This document shows positions 20,234 through 46,119 of a DNA stretch of 64,000 nt, one piece after another. Position numbers and translations under genes: made by a program. Each line of letters starts with the position of its first letter. The stretch's first letter is position 1. Under the pieces are notes generated by a model. That model ran no database searches. It was not told where the DNA came from and saw only the letters and a program-made list of their open reading frames with translations. Origin of the DNA: an uncultured Eubacteriales bacterium (lineage in GTDB: Bacteria > Bacillota > Clostridia > Christensenellales > Aristaeellaceae); contig CACWZP010000016.1 in assembly GCA_902765395.1 (NCBI GenBank), positions 1-64,000 of the forward strand. Direction: 5' to 3'.

Positions 20234-21304
20234 ATGGCCATCAGAACATCTGACCAGATCAGCATCGTCGACCTGACGGACGGCTACTCGGTCATACTCA
20301 CCAATGACAGCTACACCTTTGCGGGCAGCACCAGCGCCGCCAACGCGGGCAGCACCACCACGACCGTCGTGGCCATGTGCGGCGCGACGCAGGTGGCTGC
20401 GTCAGTCGACCTGAATGATGTGGTGAAGCCTACCGGGGTGACCGTCACCAAGGACACCGATGTCACTCAGCCCACCCTGACCATATCGGTGGCGAACACG
20501 GTCACCACCGGCGGCGTGGTGGACATCCCCGTCCAGCTGGACAACGGGAACATCACCATCCACAAGCTGTTCACCTTCCAGATTGCGTTCAAAGGCGCAA
20601 CCGGGTCGGCTGGCACCTCCGCGCAGTGGTACACCGGCACGAAGATCACCGGCACCAGCACGACGGCGACCATCTTCAGCGACAGTGGTATCACGGCGGC
20701 GAAGGTCGGCGACATGTACCTGAACACCAGCACCCAAAATACCTATCGCTGTACCGTGGCAGGCGCGGCTTCCGTGGCCAAGTGGGTGTACGTTTCGAAC
20801 ATCAAAGGCGCGACCGGCGGCGCAGGCTCTTCAGCACAATGGTATACAGGCACCGGCATCACGGGCACCTCCACCACGGCCACGATCTTCAGCGGCAGTG
20901 GTGTGAGTGCCGCGAAGGTCGGCGACATGTACCTGAACACCAGTACCCAGAACACCTACCGCTGCACCGTCGCCGGCGCAGCTGATGTGGCGAAGTGGGT
21001 GTACGTTTCGAATATCAAAGGTGCGACCGGCGGCACCGGCCCTGCCGGGGCGGACGCCATTACCATGAGCATCACCAGCAGCAACGGCACCATCTTCAAG
21101 AATACCGGCGTCAGCACGACCCTGACGGCCCATGTGTACAGGGCTGGCACAGAGCTCAGCGCTTCACAGATTGCGGAGCTGGGAACCATCAAGTGGTATA
21201 AGGACGGCTCCACTACACCGCTGTCTACGACCGGCGCAACGCTGAACATCAACGCATCCGACGTAATCAACAAGGCCAGCTATATCGCGCAGTTGGAGGG
21301 ATGA
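20234..21304 (+). CDS. Tail fibre protein with collagen-like segments and Ig-like end
   Basis: 356 residues. A beta domain (1-115), then three GATG-type collagen-like starts (KGATGSAGTSAQ, KGATGGAGSSAQ, KGATGGTGPAGAD) that head a 71-residue module QWYTGTxITGTSTTATIF...YRCTVAGAA.VAKWVYVSNI present twice, then an Ig-like end (TSSNGTIFKNTGVSTTLTAHVYRAGTEL... IKWYKDGSTTPLSTTGATLNI). Such fibres trimerise and contact the host surface. It starts 12 bases after the tail-tip gene with AAGGAGG upstream. Confidence 0.75.
   Translation: MAIRTSDQISIVDLTDGYSVILTNDSYTFAGSTSAANAGSTTTTVVAMCGATQVAASVDLNDVVKPTGVTVTKDTDVTQPTLTISVANTVTTGGVVDIPVQLDNGNITIHKLFTFQIAFKGATGSAGTSAQWYTGTKITGTSTTATIFSDSGITAAKVGDMYLNTSTQNTYRCTVAGAASVAKWVYVSNIKGATGGAGSSAQWYTGTGITGTSTTATIFSGSGVSAAKVGDMYLNTSTQNTYRCTVAGAADVAKWVYVSNIKGATGGTGPAGADAITMSITSSNGTIFKNTGVSTTLTAHVYRAGTELSASQIAELGTIKWYKDGSTTPLSTTGATLNINASDVINKASYIAQLEG
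20591..21016 (+). repeat. Two tandem 213-bp repeats in the tail fibre gene
   Basis: Units at 20591-20803 and 20804-21016 are both exactly 213 bases (71 codons), with a third partial start at 21017. Both encode the module from KGATG to NI, with most residues identical (for example VGDMYLNTSTQNTYRCTVAGAA in each). The DNA is nearly identical over long stretches, so the duplication is recent or kept alike by recombination. Confidence 0.9.
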
Positions 21305-26848: not shown

Positions 26849-26990
26849 TGTTCACACCTACAACCGGCATTTCGTTCACATCTAACGCCCGAGCCGTTCA
26901 CATCTAATCCGCCGAGCTGTTCACATCGACCGCCCGAGTCGTTCACATCGACGTGATGTTGACAGAGGGAGTGCTCGCGCTGTTCACATC
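26849..26990 (+). repeat. Array of six GTTCACATC repeats beside tRNA-Val
   Basis: GTTCACA-type words begin at 26850, 26874, 26896, 26919, 26941 and 26982, i.e. spacings 24, 22, 23, 22 and 41. Copies 2-5 share a longer context, roughly GTTCACATCKAMCGCCCGAG. Copy 5 carries TCGTTCACATCGA, which is also the anticodon-arm sequence of the neighbouring tRNA-Val read 5' to 3' on the other strand. They lie directly after the recombinase terminator. They could be recombinase-binding or attachment-site repeats; spacers are far too short for CRISPR. Confidence 0.8.
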
Positions 26991-31712: not shown

Positions 31713-31783
31713 GATTTCCGGCGAAGTCCTGCGGCCTCCGCCGGACCGCGCGACGCCCGCCTTTGGCGGTCCGCCCGCTAATC
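31713..31783 (-). repeat. 71-bp two-hairpin element, copy A
   Basis: On the minus strand it starts GATTAGCGGG and ends CCGGAAATC. First hairpin CCGCC-AAA-GGCGG; second has outer stem CCGGCG/CGCCGG and inner CC-GCA-GG. Same length (71 bp) and the same start and end as the copy in potC, and related to the three copies at 42.7-43.0 kb. Stems differ in sequence but remain paired. The element lies in the 340-base gap between the secreted protein gene and rmuC. Confidence 0.75.
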
Positions 31784-36705: not shown

Positions 36706-37566
36706 CTACAGGTTTTCCAGCTTCGTGCGCTTGTTCACCAGCACCAGCAGGATCAGGATCGTGGTGAACATCAGCGTGGACAGGGCATACATCGTGGGCT
36801 TGACCCCCAGCTTGGTGGAGGAATACACGATGCGGGACAGGTTCGGGTACATATCCGAGGACGTGAAGTAGGAGATGACGAAGTCGTCCAGGGACATGGT
36901 GAAGGCCAGCAGCGCGCCGGTGAAGATGCCGGGGGTGATCTCCGGGATGATGACCTTCCACAGCGCCTTGATGGGCTTGCAGCCCAGATCCAGCGCCGCC
37001 TCGTACAGGTTCGGGTTCATCTGCCGCAGCTTCGGCATCACCGAAAACAGCACGTAGGGGATGTCGAAGGCGATGTGGGCGAAGATCATCGTCCACTTGC
37101 CCAGGGGCACATGGCAGAACAGGTACATCAGCATCAGCGAAACGCCGGTGACGATGTCCGGGGTGGTCATGGGCAGGTAGGACACGTTGATCAGCATGCC
37201 CGCCATGCCGGAATTCATGGCGTGGATGCCGATGGCGCCCAGGGTGCCGATGATGGTGGAGATGATCGTGGCCACCACGGCCACCTCGATGGTGGTCTTC
37301 AGCGCGCCAAGGATCGCCGGGTCATTGAACAGCTTCACGTACCAGTCCAGGGTGAAGCCCGTCCACTGGCTGCGGGATACGGAGGCGTTGAAGGAGAGCG
37401 CGATCATGATCAGGATGGGCGCGTAGAGGAACAGCATCAGCAGCGCCATCCAGATGGTGCGCACGGTCTTGAGGCGATTGGCCCGATTAGCGGACCAGCG
37501 AGCGAAGCGAGCGGTCGCACGGTCCGCCGGAGCCCGCCGGGTTTCGGCGGAAATCGTCTTCACCAC
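36706..37566 (-). CDS. potC: Polyamine ABC transporter permease PotC with repeat-derived N-terminus
   Basis: 286 residues; six membrane helices, inner-membrane motif EAALDLGCKPIKALWKVIIPEITPGI (EAA loop contacting PotA). The first codon is GTG at 37566, overlapping the potB stop by 7 bases. Residues 4 to about 27 (TISAETRRAPADRATARFARWSAN) are encoded entirely by a 71-bp two-hairpin repeat element read in frame; family members normally begin near LKTVRTIWMALLMLFLYAPILIM. The extra basic leader is cytoplasmic and may be tolerated. Confidence 0.9.
   Translation of the reverse strand: MVKTISAETRRAPADRATARFARWSANRANRLKTVRTIWMALLMLFLYAPILIMIALSFNASVSRSQWTGFTLDWYVKLFNDPAILGALKTTIEVAVVATIISTIIGTLGAIGIHAMNSGMAGMLINVSYLPMTTPDIVTGVSLMLMYLFCHVPLGKWTMIFAHIAFDIPYVLFSVMPKLRQMNPNLYEAALDLGCKPIKALWKVIIPEITPGIFTGALLAFTMSLDDFVISYFTSSDMYPNLSRIVYSSTKLGVKPTMYALSTLMFTTILILLVLVNKRTKLENL
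37485..37555 (+). repeat. 71-bp two-hairpin element, copy B, inside potC
   Basis: Begins GATTAGCGG and ends CGGCGGAAATC on the + strand (potC is on the minus strand). Second hairpin: CCGCCG/CGGCGG with inner CCC-GCC-GGG. First hairpin weaker (GACC/GGTC around GCGAGCGAAGCGAGC). Exactly as long as copy A. The frame through it has no stop. Confidence 0.78.
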
Positions 37567-39709: not shown

Positions 39710-40243
39710 GGACGGCGGTGTGGACACCCACAGCACCCGGCACACGCCCTTGCCGGCGTTCACCAGCTTGCGGGGGGCGGTGGGGCGCAGGTAGAAGCTC
39801 TCGCCCTTGCGGGCGCGCTCCACGTGGTCGCCCAGCACGATCTTCACCGTGCCGCTGAGCACATAGCCGAACTCCTCGCCCTCGTGGGGGTCGTCCTCGG
39901 CCGTCTCGCCGCCGGGGCCCATCTCCAGCAGTATCGGCTCCATCTCGTTCTTCTGGGCCGAGGGGATCAGCCAGCGGATCATGCCCTTCAGGCCGTCCGG
40001 GTCCTCCTTGACGAAGATGTCCTCGCCGGTGAACACCAGCTTCTCGTCCTCCTTGCGGAAGAAGGTGGGCAGGTCGGTGCCCAGCGTCTCCAGCAGGTCC
40101 GACAGCGTGTCCAGCGAGGGGGAGGTCAGATCCCGCTCCAGCAGGGAGATGAAGCTCTTCGACAGCTCGCAGCGGTCCGCCAGCTCCTCCTGGGTCAGGG
40201 CGCGCTGCAGGCGCAGCCTGCGCAGTTTATCACCGATTTTCAC
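39704..40243 (-). CDS. XRE-family regulator with cupin domain (polyamine operon regulator)
   Basis: 179 residues. HTH at 1-60 (LRLQRALTQEELADRCELSKSFISLLERDLTSPSLDTLSDLLETLG) and a cupin at about 100-175 (EGEEFGYVLSGTVKIVLGDHVERARKGESFYLRPTAPRKLVNAG). This is the PuuR-like architecture that senses polyamines or related ligands and sits at the head of pot operons. Starts with GTG 40243, 7 bases after GGAGGCGG. Stop codon lies in a repeat arm. Confidence 0.9.
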   Translation of the reverse strand: MKIGDKLRRLRLQRALTQEELADRCELSKSFISLLERDLTSPSLDTLSDLLETLGTDLPTFFRKEDEKLVFTGEDIFVKEDPDGLKGMIRWLIPSAQKNEMEPILLEMGPGGETAEDDPHEGEEFGYVLSGTVKIVLGDHVERARKGESFYLRPTAPRKLVNAGKGVCRVLWVSTPPSF

Positions 40244-40428
40244 AGTCCCGCCTCCATGCTTTTTATCACCCGAGTTTAAGATTACTGAACTTTTGGGCGA
40301 AATATATTAAACCACCTTTCCGCTTCCATGTCAATATGCAGGCGGCGCTCAAAGCGTTAAATGTATGTGATTAAATTATAGGCCCAAAAGTTTAGTGTCA
40401 TTGAACCTGGAGAAATGGGGATTTTGGC

Positions 40429-40458
40429 TTGATTGCGGCTGTCAAATGATGCTATAAT
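40429..40458 (+). promoter_or_regulatory. Promoter TTGATT-18-TATAAT (extended -10)
   Basis: TTGATT at 40429-40434, 18 bases, TGCTATAAT ending at 40458. Start of the sugar kinase gene is 37 bases downstream. Confidence 0.8.
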
Positions 40459-40494
40459 ACAGGGGATTACAAGAGCATACGGGAGGCGGATGGC

Positions 40495-41379
40495 ATGCTG
40501 GTGGTTGGCGCGGTGTTCGTGGACGTGAAGGGCTTTGCCCAGAACCATTACCTGCCGCTGGAGCGCAACGTGGGCGAGGTGCAGGTCACCTCGGGCGGCG
40601 TGTGCCGCAACGTGGCGGAGAACTTCGTGAAGCTGGGCGTGAAGGCGCAATTTGTCAGCATGGTGGACGACAACGCCCTGGGCCGGGACGTGCGGGAAAA
40701 GCTGGCGGCGCTGGGCGTGGACGCGGAGCACGTGATCGAGGCCCCAAAGGGCATGGGCATGTGGCTGGCCATATTGGACGAGAAGGGCGACCTGGCCGGG
40801 TCCATCTCCCGCCAGCCGGACTTTTCGGCCATGGAGGCCTACCTGGATCGGCACGGCGATGAGATCATGGCCTCGGCCGAGGGCGTGGTGCTGGAGGTGG
40901 ACACCAACGCGGCCATCTCCCGGCGGGTGCTGTCGCTGGCGAAGCAGCACGGCAAGCCGGTGTATTCCATCGTGGGCAACATGGGGGTCATATTGCAGCA
41001 CCCGGAGTACCTGCACGACGTGGCCTGCTTCATCTGCAACGAGATGGAGGCCGGGCGGCTGTTCCGGGAGGATCTGACCCACCTGGCGCCCGAGGCCATG
41101 CTGGAGGCCCTGAAGCGGGGCAGCGCCGTGGCGGGCATCAAGGCCATGGTCATCACCATGGGCGCCCAGGGCGCGGTGTACGTGGACAACCAGACCGGCG
41201 AATTCGGCTACTGCCCGCCCATGGAGGTGGACGTGGTGGACACCACCGGCGCCGGCGACGCCTTCTTCTCCGCCGCCGTGGCCGCGCTGATGGACGGCGC
41301 GCCGCTGTCCCAGGCCGTGCAGGCCGGCACGAAGCTGGCCGCCCAGACCCTGCGCGTGGCGGGGAGCTGCGCGGAATAA
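40495..41379 (+). CDS. PfkB-family carbohydrate/nucleoside kinase
   Basis: 294 residues. N-terminal glycines GGVCRNVAENFVKLG, C-terminal catalytic signature DTTGAGDAFFSAAVAALMDG with the catalytic Asp. The short opening MLVVGAVFVDVKGF and VTSGGVCRNVAEN resemble pseudouridine kinase or ribokinase-like enzymes; GNMGVILQHPEYL in the middle is not diagnostic. Phosphorylates a sugar or nucleoside hydroxyl. No glycosidase partner is next to it, so the substrate is open. Confidence 0.88.
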   Translation: MLVVGAVFVDVKGFAQNHYLPLERNVGEVQVTSGGVCRNVAENFVKLGVKAQFVSMVDDNALGRDVREKLAALGVDAEHVIEAPKGMGMWLAILDEKGDLAGSISRQPDFSAMEAYLDRHGDEIMASAEGVVLEVDTNAAISRRVLSLAKQHGKPVYSIVGNMGVILQHPEYLHDVACFICNEMEAGRLFREDLTHLAPEAMLEALKRGSAVAGIKAMVITMGAQGAVYVDNQTGEFGYCPPMEVDVVDTTGAGDAFFSAAVAALMDGAPLSQAVQAGTKLAAQTLRVAGSCAE

Positions 41380-41380
41380 C

Positions 41381-41501
41381 AAGAGTTGAGAGTGGAGTTG
41401 TGGTGGAAATCCTTCGGATTTCTTCTTATTCGACACGGAACCTGTCAGCTTATCGCGTCAGCCACTGGCTTTATCTAAACTCTTAACTCTAAACTCTATA
41501 T
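41381..41501. repeat. Heptamer inverted repeat between kinase and cysteine desulfurase
   Basis: AAGAGTTGAGAGTGGAGTTG at the left and TAAACTCTTAACTCTAAACT at the right, built of AGTTTAG/AGTTAAG/GAGTTGA units. The right arm contains the TAG stop of the cysteine desulfurase gene on the minus strand. A small hairpin GAAATCC/GGATTTC lies inside. Confidence 0.75.
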
Positions 41502-42586
41502 ACTCCTTCCATGATCTCCGCCGCGGTGCGGAGGTCTTTTTCCGCGGTGCCGCGGCCGATGCTGACGCGGATGACCCGGGCGGCGTCGGCTTCCGACAGA
41601 CCCATGGCCCGGTAGACGTGGCTGACGGCGGCCTCCCGGCTGGCGCAGGCGGCCCCGCCGGACACCTCCACGCCCCTCGCGTCCAGCGCGGCGATGGCCT
41701 GCTCGGAGGTGAGCCGGGGCATCAGCAGCGCGGCCACGCCCGGCAGCCGCGGCGCGCCTTCGCCCAGCAGACGCGCGCCGGGGACGCGCCGCCCAATTTC
41801 CTCTATAAAGGCATCCAGCAGCGCAGCCTCCCGCGCGGCCTCCTCATTCATGTCCGTTAGGGCGATCTCCGCCGCCGCGCCCAGCCCCGCGATGGCGGGC
41901 AGGTTCTCCGTTCCGGCGCGCCGGCCCAATTCCTGCCCGCCGCCGAGGATCAGCGGCGGCACGCTCACGCCCTGCCGGACGTACAGCGCCCCGACGCCCC
42001 GGGGGCCGCAGAACTTGTGGCCGGACAGGGTGAGCACGTCCGCGCCCAGAGCCTTCACGTCCACGGGGATGTGGCCCGCGGCCTGCACCGCGTCGCAGTG
42101 CAGGGGGATGTGCCGATCCCGGGCGATGGCGGCGATCTGCGCGACGGGCTGGATCACGCCGGTCTCGTTGTTGGCCAGCATCACCGAGATCAGCCGCGTG
42201 TCCGGCCGCAGCGCCCGGGCCACCGCCTCCGGGGACACCCGGCCGTCCGCGTCCGGGGCCGCCAGCGTAACCTCTTTGCAGATGGATTTCGCCGCGTTCA
42301 GCACCGAAGCGTGCTCGATGGCGGACACCACCGCGTGGCCGCCCCGGGCGATGAGCAGCGCCTGGTTGTTGGCTTCGCTGCCGCCGGAGGTGAAAGTGAT
42401 CTCCTGGGGCGTCGCGCCGATGAGCGCCGCCACCGACTGCCGGGCCTTCCGCAGCGCCCTGCGGGCCGCGCCGGCCCCGGAATAGGCCGCCGAGGGATTT
42501 CGCCAGCTGTCCCGCATGCACCGGGTCATCTCTTCGACGACCCGCCCGTCCGTGGGCGTCGTTGCGGCGTGGTCGAGGTAGATCAT
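41489..42586 (-). CDS. Cysteine desulfurase (NifS/IscS-like)
   Basis: 365 residues, class V PLP aminotransferase: opening MIYLDHAATTPTDGRVVEEM, SGGSEANNQALL, ANNETGVIQPV, PLP lysine in TLSGHKFCGPRGVGALYV, and catalytic Cys in VEVSGGAACASREAAVSHV. Removes sulfur from cysteine as a persulfide for iron-sulfur or thio-tRNA synthesis. No iscU or mnmA is adjacent. An extended -10 box (TGGTATAAT at 42617-42612 on the minus strand) lies just upstream. Confidence 0.93.
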   Translation of the reverse strand: MIYLDHAATTPTDGRVVEEMTRCMRDSWRNPSAAYSGAGAARRALRKARQSVAALIGATPQEITFTSGGSEANNQALLIARGGHAVVSAIEHASVLNAAKSICKEVTLAAPDADGRVSPEAVARALRPDTRLISVMLANNETGVIQPVAQIAAIARDRHIPLHCDAVQAAGHIPVDVKALGADVLTLSGHKFCGPRGVGALYVRQGVSVPPLILGGGQELGRRAGTENLPAIAGLGAAAEIALTDMNEEAAREAALLDAFIEEIGRRVPGARLLGEGAPRLPGVAALLMPRLTSEQAIAALDARGVEVSGGAACASREAAVSHVYRAMGLSEADAARVIRVSIGRGTAEKDLRTAAEIMEGVYRV

Positions 42587-42611
42587 GCGCTCGCCTCCGT
42601 GGTTTTTTCAT

Positions 42612-42620
42612 ATTATACCA
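42612..42620 (-). promoter_or_regulatory. Extended -10 promoter of the cysteine desulfurase gene
   Basis: TGGTATAAT on the minus strand, 26 bases before the ATG, without a clear -35 box. GGAGGCGAGCGC follows as ribosome binding site. Confidence 0.65.
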
Positions 42621-42730
42621 CAGCTGAGGGGATTGGGAAACAGGGAATCGCGGGCGCCGCGCCCTTGCAGCGGCGCCGCGGCGCAAGGCACTCCCCTGCC
42701 CCGGCCCTTCCCCGCATGCCGGAAATATGG

Positions 42731-42985
42731 TATAATAAGGATTAGCGAACCGGCTGCATGAAGTGCGGCGGTTGCGCGATTCGCCGGAAGCCCGAAGGGA
42801 TTACGGTGAAAATCATGGTATAATAAGGATTAGCGAACCGGGCCTAAGGCCGGTTGCGCGGGTCGGCGGCTCCCGCAGGGAAAGACGCCGACAATCATGG
42901 TATAATGATTAGGCAACGGCCCCGAAGGGGCGTTGGCCGGATCGGCGGGCCCCAAAGGGCAGCACGGCGACAATCAAGGTATAAT
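42731..42985 (+). repeat. Three tandem two-hairpin elements framed by four GGTATAAT boxes
   Basis: TATAAT occurs at 42731, 42819, 42901 and 42980 (steps 88, 82, 79), each preceded by GG (the first three by ATGG, an extended -10). Between them lie elements C1 42740-42814, C2 42828-42896 and C3 42907-42975, each starting GATTAG and ending AAATC or CAATC. Each holds hairpin 1 (AACCGG.../...CGGTT or AACGGCCCC/GGGGCGTT) and hairpin 2 with inner CCC-NNN-GGG and outer stems TTCGCCG/CGGTGAA, GTCGGCG/CGCCGAC, or a one-mismatch version in C3. Stem bases change together, so structure is conserved. The array fills most of the 436-base gap before the YjbR-like gene and could act as tandem promoters with structured leaders. 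Confidence 0.85.
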
Positions 42986-43022
42986 GATTTATAATTCCAC
43001 AGAGGCACGGGAGGCGGAACCC

Positions 43023-43397
43023 ATGGACATCAGCGAACTGACCCGGCACATATGCGATGCCTACGGCGCGGAGGCGGAATACCTGTTTCGGCACTACCCG
43101 GAGCTGTGCGTGTTCCGGCGGCCGGACAACCGCAAATGGTTCGCCGCGGCCAAGCCCATCCCCCGGCGCAGCCTGGGCCTGGAACAGGACGGCGAGGTGG
43201 AGATCCTCAACGTGAAGTGCGACCCGATCCTGCTGGGCTCCCTGCGGGGCAAGGGCGGCTTTCTCCCGGCCTGGCACATGAACAAGGATAACTGGGTCAC
43301 GGTGCTGCTGGACGGCACGGTGGAGGATCGGGAGATCGAAGGTCTCATCGCCATCAGCTACGACCTCACCGCACCGAAGCCCCGCGGGAAAAGGTGA
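43023..43397 (+). CDS. MmcQ/YjbR family protein
   Basis: 124 residues: ELTRHICDAYGAEAEYLFRHYPELCVFRRPDNRKWFAAAKPIP, EVEILNVKCDPILLGSLRGKGGFLPAWHMNKDNWVTVLLDGTV, and EIEGLIAISYDLTAPK, a full-length match to the YjbR/CyaY-like fold, a presumed DNA-binding family without a defined role. GGGAGGCGG precedes ATG 43023. It is the only gene downstream of the tandem element array and may be driven by its GGTATAAT boxes. Confidence 0.9.
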   Translation: MDISELTRHICDAYGAEAEYLFRHYPELCVFRRPDNRKWFAAAKPIPRRSLGLEQDGEVEILNVKCDPILLGSLRGKGGFLPAWHMNKDNWVTVLLDGTVEDREIEGLIAISYDLTAPKPRGKR

Positions 43398-43413
43398 TCT
43401 CCCAAAACCAAAC

Positions 43414-43453
43414 GCCCGGTTTTGAGCTGGAATCAGCGGCTCAAAAACCGGGC
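43414..43453. terminator. Long hairpin between convergent genes
   Basis: GCCCGGTTTTGAGC pairs with GCTCAAAAACCGGGC (one bulge) around an 11-base loop, followed by TTATTCTGT. Serves as shared terminator for the YjbR-like gene and the convergent SH3 protein gene. Confidence 0.8.
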
Positions 43454-43529
43454 TTATTCTGTAAGGCGTTCTGTTGCGTTTCATACCTGCCGCTTAAGCG
43501 CGGCAGCAGTTGACCGCGGGCGCCGCCCG

Positions 43530-44483
43530 CTATTTGTGCGCCCACCTGTAGGCGCGCTCGATGGACTGCTGGTGATACTTGTTCTCCTTGCTGGAGGCGT
43601 GGGTCCAGCTGCCACACATGTGCAGGCAGAACTGGCCGTTGTAGTTGTTGCCGCGGATCGTCTGGTCGCCGTGGGGCTTGGTGTTGATGCCGCAGGCCAC
43701 GTACTTGCCGCCGGCCTTCAGGATCACGGCGTGGCTGTCCCAGGAGAACTTGCCCTTGGCCACGCGCAGCAGCTTGGCGGTATCGGCGGCGGTGGCAGGC
43801 TCCACGTCGGCGTGGTAATGGCCGCCCATGCGCTTGATCTTCAGCTCGATGCCGGTGTCGATGTCGTAGATGTAGCCGTACTGGCCCTTGCGGAGCACAT
43901 TCTGGCCAGCCCCGAACCAGCTCATCTTCACGACCTTGCTCTTCCAGGACTTGCTGCTCTTCTTGGCAGTGGTCTTCTTGGCGGCAACCTTGCTCTTGCT
44001 GACGCAGCTGGCCTTGATATAGCCGGTGGCCGAGCCGCTGGCGTTCTGCACCTTGTAATAGCTGCCGCTCTTACCCACCACATACACCTTGGTGTTCCTG
44101 GAGATGGAGCGCCGGGCGGAGCCGGAGGACGCGCTCTTGTACACGTAGGTGTTCTTGCTGGCGTAGCCCGCGGTGCGCTTGGCGGCCTTCTTGCTGGTGG
44201 ACTTCGACGCGGAAGACGTCTTCGACAGGTACTTGGTGGGCATATAGCCGGTCTTGCCGCTCACCTTCACCTTGGCCCAGCTACCCTTGACGGCGGTCAC
44301 CGTCACCTGGGTGCCCTTCTTCATGCTCACGTGCTTGGCGGAGCTGGAGGCCGACTTGTAGATCTTCGCCGAGGAGGAATTGACCTTGGCCTTCACCGAT
44401 TCCGCCATCGCCGGGGACAGCACCGCCAGCGCCAGCACCAGGATCAGGGCCAGGCAGATCATCTTTTGTACGCGCCGCAACAT
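43530..44483 (-). CDS. Secreted SH3-repeat protein with conserved His/Asp-rich C-terminal domain
   Basis: 317 residues. Signal peptide (about 1-27), two bacterial SH3 domains (about 30-87 and 105-165) joined by Lys/Ser-rich linkers, then a 130-residue domain: KMSWFGAGQNVLRKGQYGYIYDIDTGIELKI, GGHYHADVEPATAADTAKLLRV, SWDSHAVILKAGG, NGQFCLHMCGSWTH. The regularly placed HxHxD, S-x-H and FCLHM...TH residues look like a hydrolase centre; the domain recurs in clostridial SH3 proteins but I know no assigned activity. Located outside the cell, wall-bound. TM-type hydrophobic stretch is only the signal. Confidence 0.75.
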   Translation of the reverse strand: MLRRVQKMICLALILVLALAVLSPAMAESVKAKVNSSSAKIYKSASSSAKHVSMKKGTQVTVTAVKGSWAKVKVSGKTGYMPTKYLSKTSSASKSTSKKAAKRTAGYASKNTYVYKSASSGSARRSISRNTKVYVVGKSGSYYKVQNASGSATGYIKASCVSKSKVAAKKTTAKKSSKSWKSKVVKMSWFGAGQNVLRKGQYGYIYDIDTGIELKIKRMGGHYHADVEPATAADTAKLLRVAKGKFSWDSHAVILKAGGKYVACGINTKPHGDQTIRGNNYNGQFCLHMCGSWTHASSKENKYHQQSIERAYRWAHK

Positions 44484-44731
44484 ATTGGTTCACCTTTTCT
44501 ATCAGATTTTAAAATCTGGTATCATTATATTACAAAAGTATTTCAAAATGTGTGAAGTCCTTAAAATGTCCCTTCATATTCCCATGCTCGTCGCAATATT
44601 TCCAGGTGTTGTCCATTTTTCCAAGAAAATGCAATATAGATATGTTACAAAATTATATTATCAGGCAGGCATGGCTGGCGCAGGCCCCCCCGACGCAACG
44701 CTCCCGTTTCCTCTTCCCTGCTGCCGCCTCC

Positions 44732-44823
44732 CCGGGCGGGCGGCGCAACGCCGCCCCTACAGAAGCATGGCAGCCACCAATCCCGCTTCGTTCTCCCCCG
44801 GGCGGGCGGCGCAACGCCGCCCT
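44732..44823. repeat. Two GGGCGGGCGGCGCAACGCC repeats
   Basis: The word GGGCGGGCGGCGCAACGCCG followed by CCC occurs at about 44735 and 44800, 65 bases apart; GGCGGCGCAACGCC is itself a palindrome around CAAC. Related words are at 35042 and, reversed, 48629-48648 inside an SH3 gene end. The rest of the 44484-45035 gap is AT-rich near 44510-44680 (leader of the SH3 gene) and has a promoter near its right edge. Confidence 0.7.
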
Positions 44824-44940
44824 TCAGCGACAGCAAGACGGCCCAGATACCGCCCCTACCGAATTTGCGCCAGCCACATTCCCTACTCCCTCTTCCCTAC
44901 TCCCTAAATTAGACTTTTTCTCGAAATCCGCCCGCAGGAT

Positions 44941-44969
44941 TTGACGATTCGCGCCCGGATATGTATAAT
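44941..44969 (+). promoter_or_regulatory. Promoter TTGACG-17-TATAAT
   Basis: TTGACG at 44941-44946, 17-base spacer, TATAAT at 44964-44969. Drives the small membrane protein gene 67 bases further on. Confidence 0.88.
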
Positions 44970-45035
44970 AGAGGTGTATATGAACCAGCGTGTACCGGTC
45001 GTTTCGACGGCCGTCCCTATGAGAGGAGCTTTATC

Positions 45036-45323
45036 ATGGCGAAAACAAGCAAAAAGCAGCCTTCGGTGCTGAACTGGATGGGGTCGCTGATCCTGTACGC
45101 CATTCCCGGCGTCAACCTGATCTTCCTGATTCTCTCCGCGATCTTCGCGAAGTCCACCAGCAAGCGCAGCTTTGCCGTGGCCGGCATCCTGCTGATCATC
45201 CTGTGCGCGCTGCTGACGTTCGCGGCCTTCGCCATTTTCCCGGAATTCTTCACCCGGCTCACCGAGGCCATGCGTCAGGCGGCCCACCCCGCCCCCGTGG
45301 GCGAGATCATCCCCGTGGCGTAA
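45036..45323 (+). CDS. Small two-helix membrane protein
   Basis: 95 residues: polar start MAKTSKKQPSVLNWMG, membrane helices at about 16-37 (SLILYAIPGVNLIFLILSAIFA) and 46-70 (FAVAGILLIILCALLTFAAFAIF), polar end. No family recognised. ATG 45036 follows GAGAGGAG; strong promoter before and perfect terminator after, so it is a monocistronic expressed unit. Confidence 0.8.
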   Translation: MAKTSKKQPSVLNWMGSLILYAIPGVNLIFLILSAIFAKSTSKRSFAVAGILLIILCALLTFAAFAIFPEFFTRLTEAMRQAAHPAPVGEIIPVA

Positions 45324-45333
45324 AAAAGGCAGC

Positions 45334-45367
45334 AAAATGGAGCCATCCGTTTGGATGGCTCCATTTT
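45334..45367. terminator. Perfect 15-bp bidirectional terminator
   Basis: AAAATGGAGCCATCC, loop GTTT, GGATGGCTCCATTTT. A-run before and T-run after make it work for both convergent genes. Confidence 0.93.
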
Positions 45368-45381
45368 CGTGCCCACAAGGT

Positions 45382-46119
45382 TTATTTCATCAGATTCTCC
45401 ATAAATTCCTCGAAGTGCTTTGCCTTCAGCTTGGTATCGCGCACGTTCGTGGTCTTTTCGCCGAGGCTGTCGGAAAACACCCAGTTGTCCCAGAAGAAGC
45501 GGCCGCTCGCCACATCGTAGACATACGCCGTCGCCTGCTCCTGCATGGACCTCTCGTGCACGCCGCCCTCCGTCCAGTAGTCGACCCTGTTCGGATTGCG
45601 GCGCAGCCAAAAGCAGAGCGTTTTAAAGGCGTCCGGGTCGCCCTCGTCCGGCCATTTTTCGTCCTTCACCCGGCCCACGCGGGTCACGCCCGCAACAAAG
45701 GGCCGCTCGTTTTCGTCCACGCCCAGCTCCAGGATCATGCAGGGCATCTGCGCGCGCACTCCCTCAGGCTTTTCAGAGCCCGCGGCGATCTCGTAGTAGA
45801 CGCTTCGAATACCGTTGCCCTCGGCGTCCGTCTGCCCGGTGTAGTCGCCCTCCACAACCCGGAGCGTCATGTCGTCCAAAACCTGCTGAACCAGCGGGTT
45901 CTGGCGCGCCTTGTCCAAATTGCCATTTCGCCAGACGGCGCTCTGGCTGGTAGACACCGCAACGATGACAGCCATGCCGCCCAGGACCGCCAGAAACACC
46001 AGGGCTTCCAGTCCGTTGCGCGGCCTGCCCTGCTTGCGCAGTCGGGCGAAGATCACCTCAGCCGCCACGAGAATCACCGCCAATGCGAAGATAAGGATTA
46101 TCTGCAGCGTATTACTCAT
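45382..46119 (-). CDS. Unrecognised membrane protein, 245 aa
   Basis: Two N-terminal membrane helices (about 5-24 and 38-56) separated by a short basic loop, then a soluble domain (KARQNPLVQQVLDDMTLRVVEGDYTGQTDAEGNGIRSVYYEIAAG, TLCFWLRRNPNRVDYWTEGGVHERSMQEQATAYVYDVASGRFFWDNWVFSDSLGEKT). No motif identified. The soluble part probably lies outside. Follows yhaM on the same strand after 64 bases and may be its co-transcribed neighbour. Confidence 0.72.
   Translation of the reverse strand: MSNTLQIILIFALAVILVAAEVIFARLRKQGRPRNGLEALVFLAVLGGMAVIVAVSTSQSAVWRNGNLDKARQNPLVQQVLDDMTLRVVEGDYTGQTDAEGNGIRSVYYEIAAGSEKPEGVRAQMPCMILELGVDENERPFVAGVTRVGRVKDEKWPDEGDPDAFKTLCFWLRRNPNRVDYWTEGGVHERSMQEQATAYVYDVASGRFFWDNWVFSDSLGEKTTNVRDTKLKAKHFEEFMENLMK

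Follow-up and report, generated by a model that had tools for sequence, protein, structure and literature searches.

The window analysed here is a stretch of 64,000 nucleotides (positions 1 to 64,000 of contig CACWZP010000016.1) from an uncultured Eubacteriales bacterium. Upstream of a gene of the YjbR family it contains an array in which extended -10 promoter boxes alternate with three units, each folding into two hairpins. This array is probably the result of units having been inserted at the native YjbR promoter, with extra boxes left behind, rather than a device of the YjbR gene. The units belong to a non-autonomous interspersed repeat of about 70 bp that occurs throughout one genus of uncultured Clostridia. 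An earlier note on this DNA, made from its letters alone, had proposed that the array may serve the YjbR-like gene as a serial promoter with structured leaders, or may be a string of small RNAs; against a device for that gene stand the closest relative found, whose YjbR gene has one native -10 box and no unit, and the presence of units in front of several unrelated-looking genes.

Boxes and units of the array

Four GGTATAAT boxes start at positions 42729, 42817, 42899 and 42978, in steps of 88, 82 and 79 bp, and alternate with three units of 75, 69 and 69 bp when these are cut at GATT...AATC; the earlier note had given the same steps and lengths. The whole window contains six GGTATAAT boxes against 0.20 expected, both strands counted. 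Read along the + strand, on which all these features lie, the array begins with the extended -10 box TGGTATAAT at 42728..42736, in the position of the -10 box in the promoter of the closest relative (genome G018). Then follow unit 1 (42740..42814, 75 nt), with two hairpins and GATT/AATC closure, a second TGGTATAAT box between units 1 and 2 (42816..42824), unit 2 (42828..42896, 69 nt), a third TGGTATAAT box between units 2 and 3 (42898..42906), and unit 3 (42907..42975, 69 nt), which has a GGC/GCC variant of the first stem. To its right stands the fourth box, GGTATAAT (42978..42985), and then a GATT that is possibly the relic of a further unit. On the gene side of the array, TATAAT at 42990..42995 is probably the native -10 box, since TTCCACAGAGG adjoins it, just as at the G018 site without a unit; the GCGACA of unit 3 lies at -35 distance from it. 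The YjbR-family gene (PF04237, E = 5e-18) occupies 43023..43397. A scan of the array found no terminator-like site between the units.

The three units are mutually 69-74% alike, while near-copies of unit 1 lie on other contigs, at C9:7752 (98% identical) and C13:71590 (94%), over 98 bp that include the box (BLAST). The array is therefore composite.

Filled and empty sites

In G018, whose YjbR is 93% identical, the YjbR promoter is GCCGGACATGTGGTATAATTCCACAGAGG, with one native -10 box and no unit, and the window flanks that match this promoter enclose the boxes and the three units. No unit was found at E<=0.1 at the loci of 15 further YjbR homologues (34-60% identical, orthology not proven for all), and seven of these loci have, by eye, a -10-like box upstream. 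On this comparison of sequences, the empty promoter is likely the older state.

Comparison with G018 was extended to 30 loci chosen by hand in addition to the window locus, ten copies of a subfamily called class C and several others being left out. Of these loci, 22 could be aligned: at 12 both genomes carry a unit or remnants of one, seven have no unit in G018 (L013, L016, L051, L114, L116, L119 and window 37485) and three were uncomparable (L005, L126 and window 31713). With the window array included, the unit is thus absent from G018 at 8 of 23 sites. L013 is a clean repeat of the window case, the native site reading GTGATATAATTATCG and the filled site holding two units between GTGGTATAAT and ATGATATGAT. 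L114 is a less clean repeat, seen on its right side alone: the native sequence is GTGGTATAATATACGG, the filled site has one unit before ATGGTATAATACACGG, and the upstream sequence is non-homologous. Among the 12 shared loci, L106 and L117 are degenerate in G018 and L110 is shortened there.

Copy number also varies between the two genomes, a point on which the earlier note had suggested looking. The own genome has one unit against two in G018 at L041, two against one at L011, one against at least two at L123, and at L009 one complete unit plus one cut by the contig end against one. The gap between rpmG and secE carries the same unit in the own genome and G018, and diverged ones in G019 (39.5 bits) and G001 (32.1 bits); the rest of the 23 loci searched for units, L159 being left out, gave weak matches (E 0.006-0.07; G009, G007, G017) or none.

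A repeat family of one genus

In the own genome, 23 matches at E<=1 were obtained by BLAST with unit 1. The covariance model R1, for which 19 units were used, raised this to 63 matches at E<=1 and 59 at E<=1e-4, spread over many contigs, with 150 of 4072 first-look candidates scored; units 2 and 3 of the array score 89.5 and 69.8 bits, both being part of the training set. A covariance search of related genomes, the check proposed in the earlier note, covered 60 genomes with stricter filters and at most 84 candidates scored per genome. The own genome and all 27 others of the genus were positive, with 1 to 59 matches each (E<=0.01), and none of the 32 genomes outside the genus (8 other genera of the family, 24 other families) had an R1 match. 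An exact-pattern scan of named public genomes returned 24 stretches, all from metagenome-assembled genomes called Clostridia or Clostridiales; the titles of two records name roe-deer rumen, and RUG in a genome name indicates rumen origin. At a guess, the genus is Aristaeella or a neighbour of it.

The repeat is short and has many dispersed copies (59 in the own genome, each about 70 bp), one of the traits of a miniature inverted-repeat transposable element (MITE) in the wide sense. It behaves as a small MITE-type repeat, assignable to no named family. The only candidates for terminal inverted repeats are GATT/AATC (or GGTT/AACC), 2-3 bp longer in some subfamilies.

Three observations concern particular members of the family. 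In G003 (RUG13574 contigs, identified by matching coordinates) ten copies have an identical 71-bp body, and the 12 bases to its left differ from copy to copy (L081, L082, L085, L086, L089, L093, L094, L095, L103), mostly behind T-runs; this looks like recent spread, in a genome without a match to Y1 transposases. In class C (L036, L038, L039, L043, L046, L050, L105, L112, L122, L128) the unit forms part of a larger repeat, about 200 bp long, that has the inverted repeat GGCGGCGGATTTCC / GGAAATCCGCCGCC, most copies having, by eye, a terminator-like hairpin in front; one copy folds into a multi-branched structure (z -3.2), and two partial pieces fold no better than shuffles (-0.6, -1.4). Finally, the end of contig C16 (114204) and the start of C3 (L009, L010) of the own genome carry the same kind of array, with spacers ATAGTGAGGTACAT and ATAGAGAGGTACAT; the C16 array lies upstream of an mnmA-like gene and may have broken the assembly.

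Positions at promoter boxes and behind terminator-like hairpins

The flanks of the units were tested on 61 of 65 own hits, after four duplicates had been dropped, and on 57 of 74 hits from the genus, after removal by hand of duplicates, overlapping loci and partial hits; a few rows without flanks were then dropped, so that 59 own and 56 genus units entered the box test, and rows that share an array or a genome are not independent of each other. A box was counted when the 14 nt left of the unit matched at least 8 of the 9 positions of TGNTATAAT, the extended -10 motif. Among the own units 18 of 59, from 11 loci, have such a box before them on the same strand, as do 14 of the 56 genus units, and a box facing the unit from the right occurs once in each set; these two cases (L017, L059) are one orthologous site with a palindromic box, and have the left box as well. 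Among control 14-mers of the same loci, mostly coding DNA, 34 of 18,895 contain a box. A same-strand box also stands on the right of 13/59 own and 12/56 genus units. The box branch of the family sits exactly at TGnTATAAT, usually with boxes on both sides and with hairpin 1 first in the direction of transcription. As the earlier note had supposed, the promoter-like boxes go with the unit, and box-bearing units mostly point towards a gene start, the downstream genes being unrelated-looking.

Two options account for the extra boxes: the native box is doubled on insertion, or the unit brings its own. We regard the second as a serious possibility, though not one to be preferred. The unit would then be a mobile promoter of about 80 bp with a structured leader, inserted before a native -10 box or recombined with it, and the target box would not be copied. 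Left boxes of neighbourless units are mostly TGGTATAAT and right ones variable; unit 1 and its near-copies on C9 and C13 share ATATGGTATAATAAG on their left, unlike the native GTGGTATAATTCC of G018; and at L013 the left box equals the consensus while the right one looks native. The greater uniformity of left boxes favours a carried box; selection for a good upstream box would, however, likewise make left boxes uniform, 41 of the 59 own units have no box, and at L013 native bases precede the left box. With regard to a possible target-site duplication, the ten bases on the left and right of the unit agree at 9-10 places in 19 of the 36 units with a box and in 5 of the 79 remaining ones, where the match is the best of a few offsets, the 36 units were chosen by their left flank and the box may be carried.

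Other copies lie behind terminator-like hairpins. Among units without a box, a terminator-like hairpin stem ends 10-20 nt to the left in 13/40 own and 14/42 genus copies, against 2/40 and 5/42 in the mirrored test and 24/851 at random positions; 27 of the 40 own non-box units show neither signal by the tests used. With both boxes and terminator-like hairpins more frequent on the left than in mirrored position, both niches are mainly co-oriented with transcription. It is conceivable, if rather unlikely, that the element targets transcription signals as such, co-oriented with transcription: one branch would use -10 boxes, another the DNA that follows intrinsic terminators. Such targeting would agree with insertion into the non-template DNA that RNA polymerase exposes; the element would then spread as a ready-made promoter with double-hairpin leaders, its target renewed at each insertion.

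Fold, covariation and strand

Each unit consists of two unlike hairpins closed by GATT/AATC or GGTT/AACC. The stems named in the earlier note are present as TTCGCCG/CGGTGAA in unit 1 and GTCGGCG/CGCCGAC in unit 2; in unit 3 the second stem is incomplete, ATCGGCG/CGGCGAC forming five of seven pairs. Single-sequence RNA folds are moderate (z -2.75, -2.42 and -1.20 for units 1, 2 and 3), those of the opposite strand as RNA reach -1.84, -2.72 and -1.10, and folds with DNA parameters -4.84, -4.32 and -3.48.

Covariation, which the earlier note had read as the mark of a selected structure, exceeds shuffled expectation in both alignments. In 18 distinct rows 95.3% of cells are paired, nine pairs have double changes (reached by 1 of 500 shuffles) and the covariation score is 0.234 against 0.068 shuffled (reached by 0 of 500). 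In 109 distinct rows, an alignment fitted to the model and so leaning towards it, with copies related by descent, 95.6% of cells are paired, 22 of 25 pairs have double changes, double-change cells number 354 against 102 in shuffles, and the score is 0.370 against 0.123 +- 0.006 (0 of 500), a signal that is lost when partners are slid. Tree-based changes away from Watson-Crick pairs gave 52 G-U and 28 A-C (p 0.0097), and outside the closing helix 48 G-U and 18 A-C (p 0.0003). Because A-C on the + strand is G-U on the other, this excess suggests selection, as RNA, of the + strand, which is read from the boxes; the earlier note had left open an RNA or a cruciform.

Multiplication of a leader- or riboswitch-like cis-regulatory RNA useful to the host, every copy being retained to regulate its own gene, would explain the covariation and the G-U excess on the + strand, and also that most box-bearing units point to a gene start. 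We nevertheless hold it to be improbable: the downstream genes look unrelated, near relatives differ in their copies, many other copies follow terminator-like hairpins, and no usable Rfam match was found. Rfam gave no match at E<=1 over 40000-46000 of the window, and over nine loci with copies only mir-885, under its gathering score and outside the unit.

Search for a mobiliser

A search limited to Y1 genes found no transposase that fits as mobiliser, and a search with one exact left-end pattern found no autonomous copy of the unit. The own genome has two Y1 matches, one IS200-like and inserted in a unit on C9, the other RAYT-like (C4:4714). A repeat of the REPIN type, copied by a RAYT (Y1) transposase, would account for the hairpins, the intergenic position and the tandem growth, and a RAYT-like gene is at hand in the own genome. 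Against this, Y1 matches are lacking in 12 of the 28 genomes of the genus, including the high-copy G004 (54 copies), G019 (46), G024 (34) and G003 (25), although incomplete assemblies could hide a Y1 gene; G027 has nine Y1 matches and three unit copies; and across the genus Y1 number and copy number are uncorrelated (rank correlation rho -0.11, p 0.58). The RAYT-like gene (L022) has GAGATAAGG-GGACGGTTCC-type palindromes on its flanks, which belong to a different repeat family. These results argue against a Y1/RAYT mobiliser and make the REPIN explanation very improbable.

At C9:7752-8580 of the own genome (L002, L021), the IS200-like element lies inside the second unit of a promoter array; its transposase frame contains two TAA, and the right part of the arrangement is also present in G018. 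The exact pattern for the left end of the box branch revealed no orphan end in the own genome: its 12 matches all fall in already known copies, including a half-unit.

Local duplication in tandem of a single promoter-hairpin unit, without mobility, fits the C33 array of four nearly identical units and the local changes in unit number, yet it almost certainly fails as the whole explanation, given window units 69-74% alike and near-copies of unit 1 (98% and 94%) on other contigs.

Probable formation of the array and its meaning

The differences between the units, and the near-copies of unit 1 elsewhere, speak for repeated insertion at the native promoter, or for a single insertion followed by exchange; the mobility would be provided by an enzyme acting in trans. 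Several points weigh against this account. At L016, L116 and 37485 G018 holds other bases, so that loss is possible there, and with three empty sites not clean our confidence is slightly lowered. The preference for gain over loss draws on one close relative and distant homologues, and slippage between box repeats could change copy number. Most own units (41/59) lack a box in the box test, the 18 with a box come from 11 loci only, and coding DNA dominates the controls. The RNA fold of the opposite strand is about equal for unit 2, single folds separating the strands poorly, and the G-U test is approximate, its tree being drawn from short sequences and its alignment having been fitted to the model.

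Transcripts from each upstream box would start at or near GATTAG; a start at or within this motif is expected from the usual spacing between -10 box and start. The boxes as active promoters are predicted from their letters. The gene would gain a 5' leader opening with the double hairpin, which may protect the message from 5'-end decay, as 5' structures of this kind slow mRNA decay in other bacteria.

Small repeats in bacteria commonly pass for intergenic litter. One branch of the present family is in register with the six most important bases of promoters and keeps the promoter box, and through it the message would acquire a new 5' end with structure. Doubling of the box renews the target, so that arrays can lengthen. 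Confirmation would reveal a natural way for genes to acquire tandem promoters and standard leaders, and would allow a direct test of whether a mobile element can target transcription signals.

Other features of the window

Upstream of the array and divergent from it lies a class-V aminotransferase gene, cysteine desulfurase-like. Two further copies of the repeat, both without a box, are found at 31713..31783 (- strand, 56.5 bits), a member of the post-terminator subfamily with the left flank TTTTTGGAATTGTGCAC, and at 37485..37555 (+ strand, 53.1 bits), where the orthologous place in G018 holds 15 other bases. Tandem repeats lie at 20645-21034 (period 213, 1.8 copies, 85% matches) and 26873-26949 (22 bp, 3.5 copies).

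Comparison with known systems

The YPAL or RU-2 elements of Yersinia, palindromic repeats of 168 bp that are not A+T-rich and have no TA ends, are likewise small and structured, with target duplications and both empty and filled sites, and their targets span or adjoin dyad symmetry, which invites comparison with the post-terminator copies described here; they differ in host and length, and the excerpt of the source, from whose description the likeness is drawn, mentions no -10 specificity (PMC2229807). Correia (NEMIS) elements of Neisseria are MITE-like, often lie before genes, form stem-loops in transcripts and bring sigma-70-like promoters (PMC10969869, PMC2229807); according to the same excerpts they measure 105-155 bp with promoters inside the element, whereas in the present units the box borders the fold from outside. 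BOX, RUP and SPRITE of Streptococcus pneumoniae share small size, interspersion, structure and near confinement to close relatives, and BOX modules vary in number; unlike the present repeat, they are over-represented between convergent genes, and the available part of the source does not mention -10 targeting (PMC3049150). REPINs, mobilised by RAYTs, are hairpin-forming, non-autonomous and capable of tandem growth (PMC8049555), but consist, as the accessible text describes them, of two inverted copies of one REP, while the halves of our unit, read inwards by eye, have GATT and little more in common, and no tie to Y1 genes was seen. Putative mobile promoters (Matus-Garcia et al. 2012) are a further kind that comes close; in the present repeat the box would be accompanied by a structured leader. 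A limited and partial literature search found no description of insertion at -10 boxes. Within the excerpts of these sources, YPAL, Correia, BOX/RUP/SPRITE and REPIN are the nearest known kinds, and it is the probable target that makes the present repeat unusual among them.
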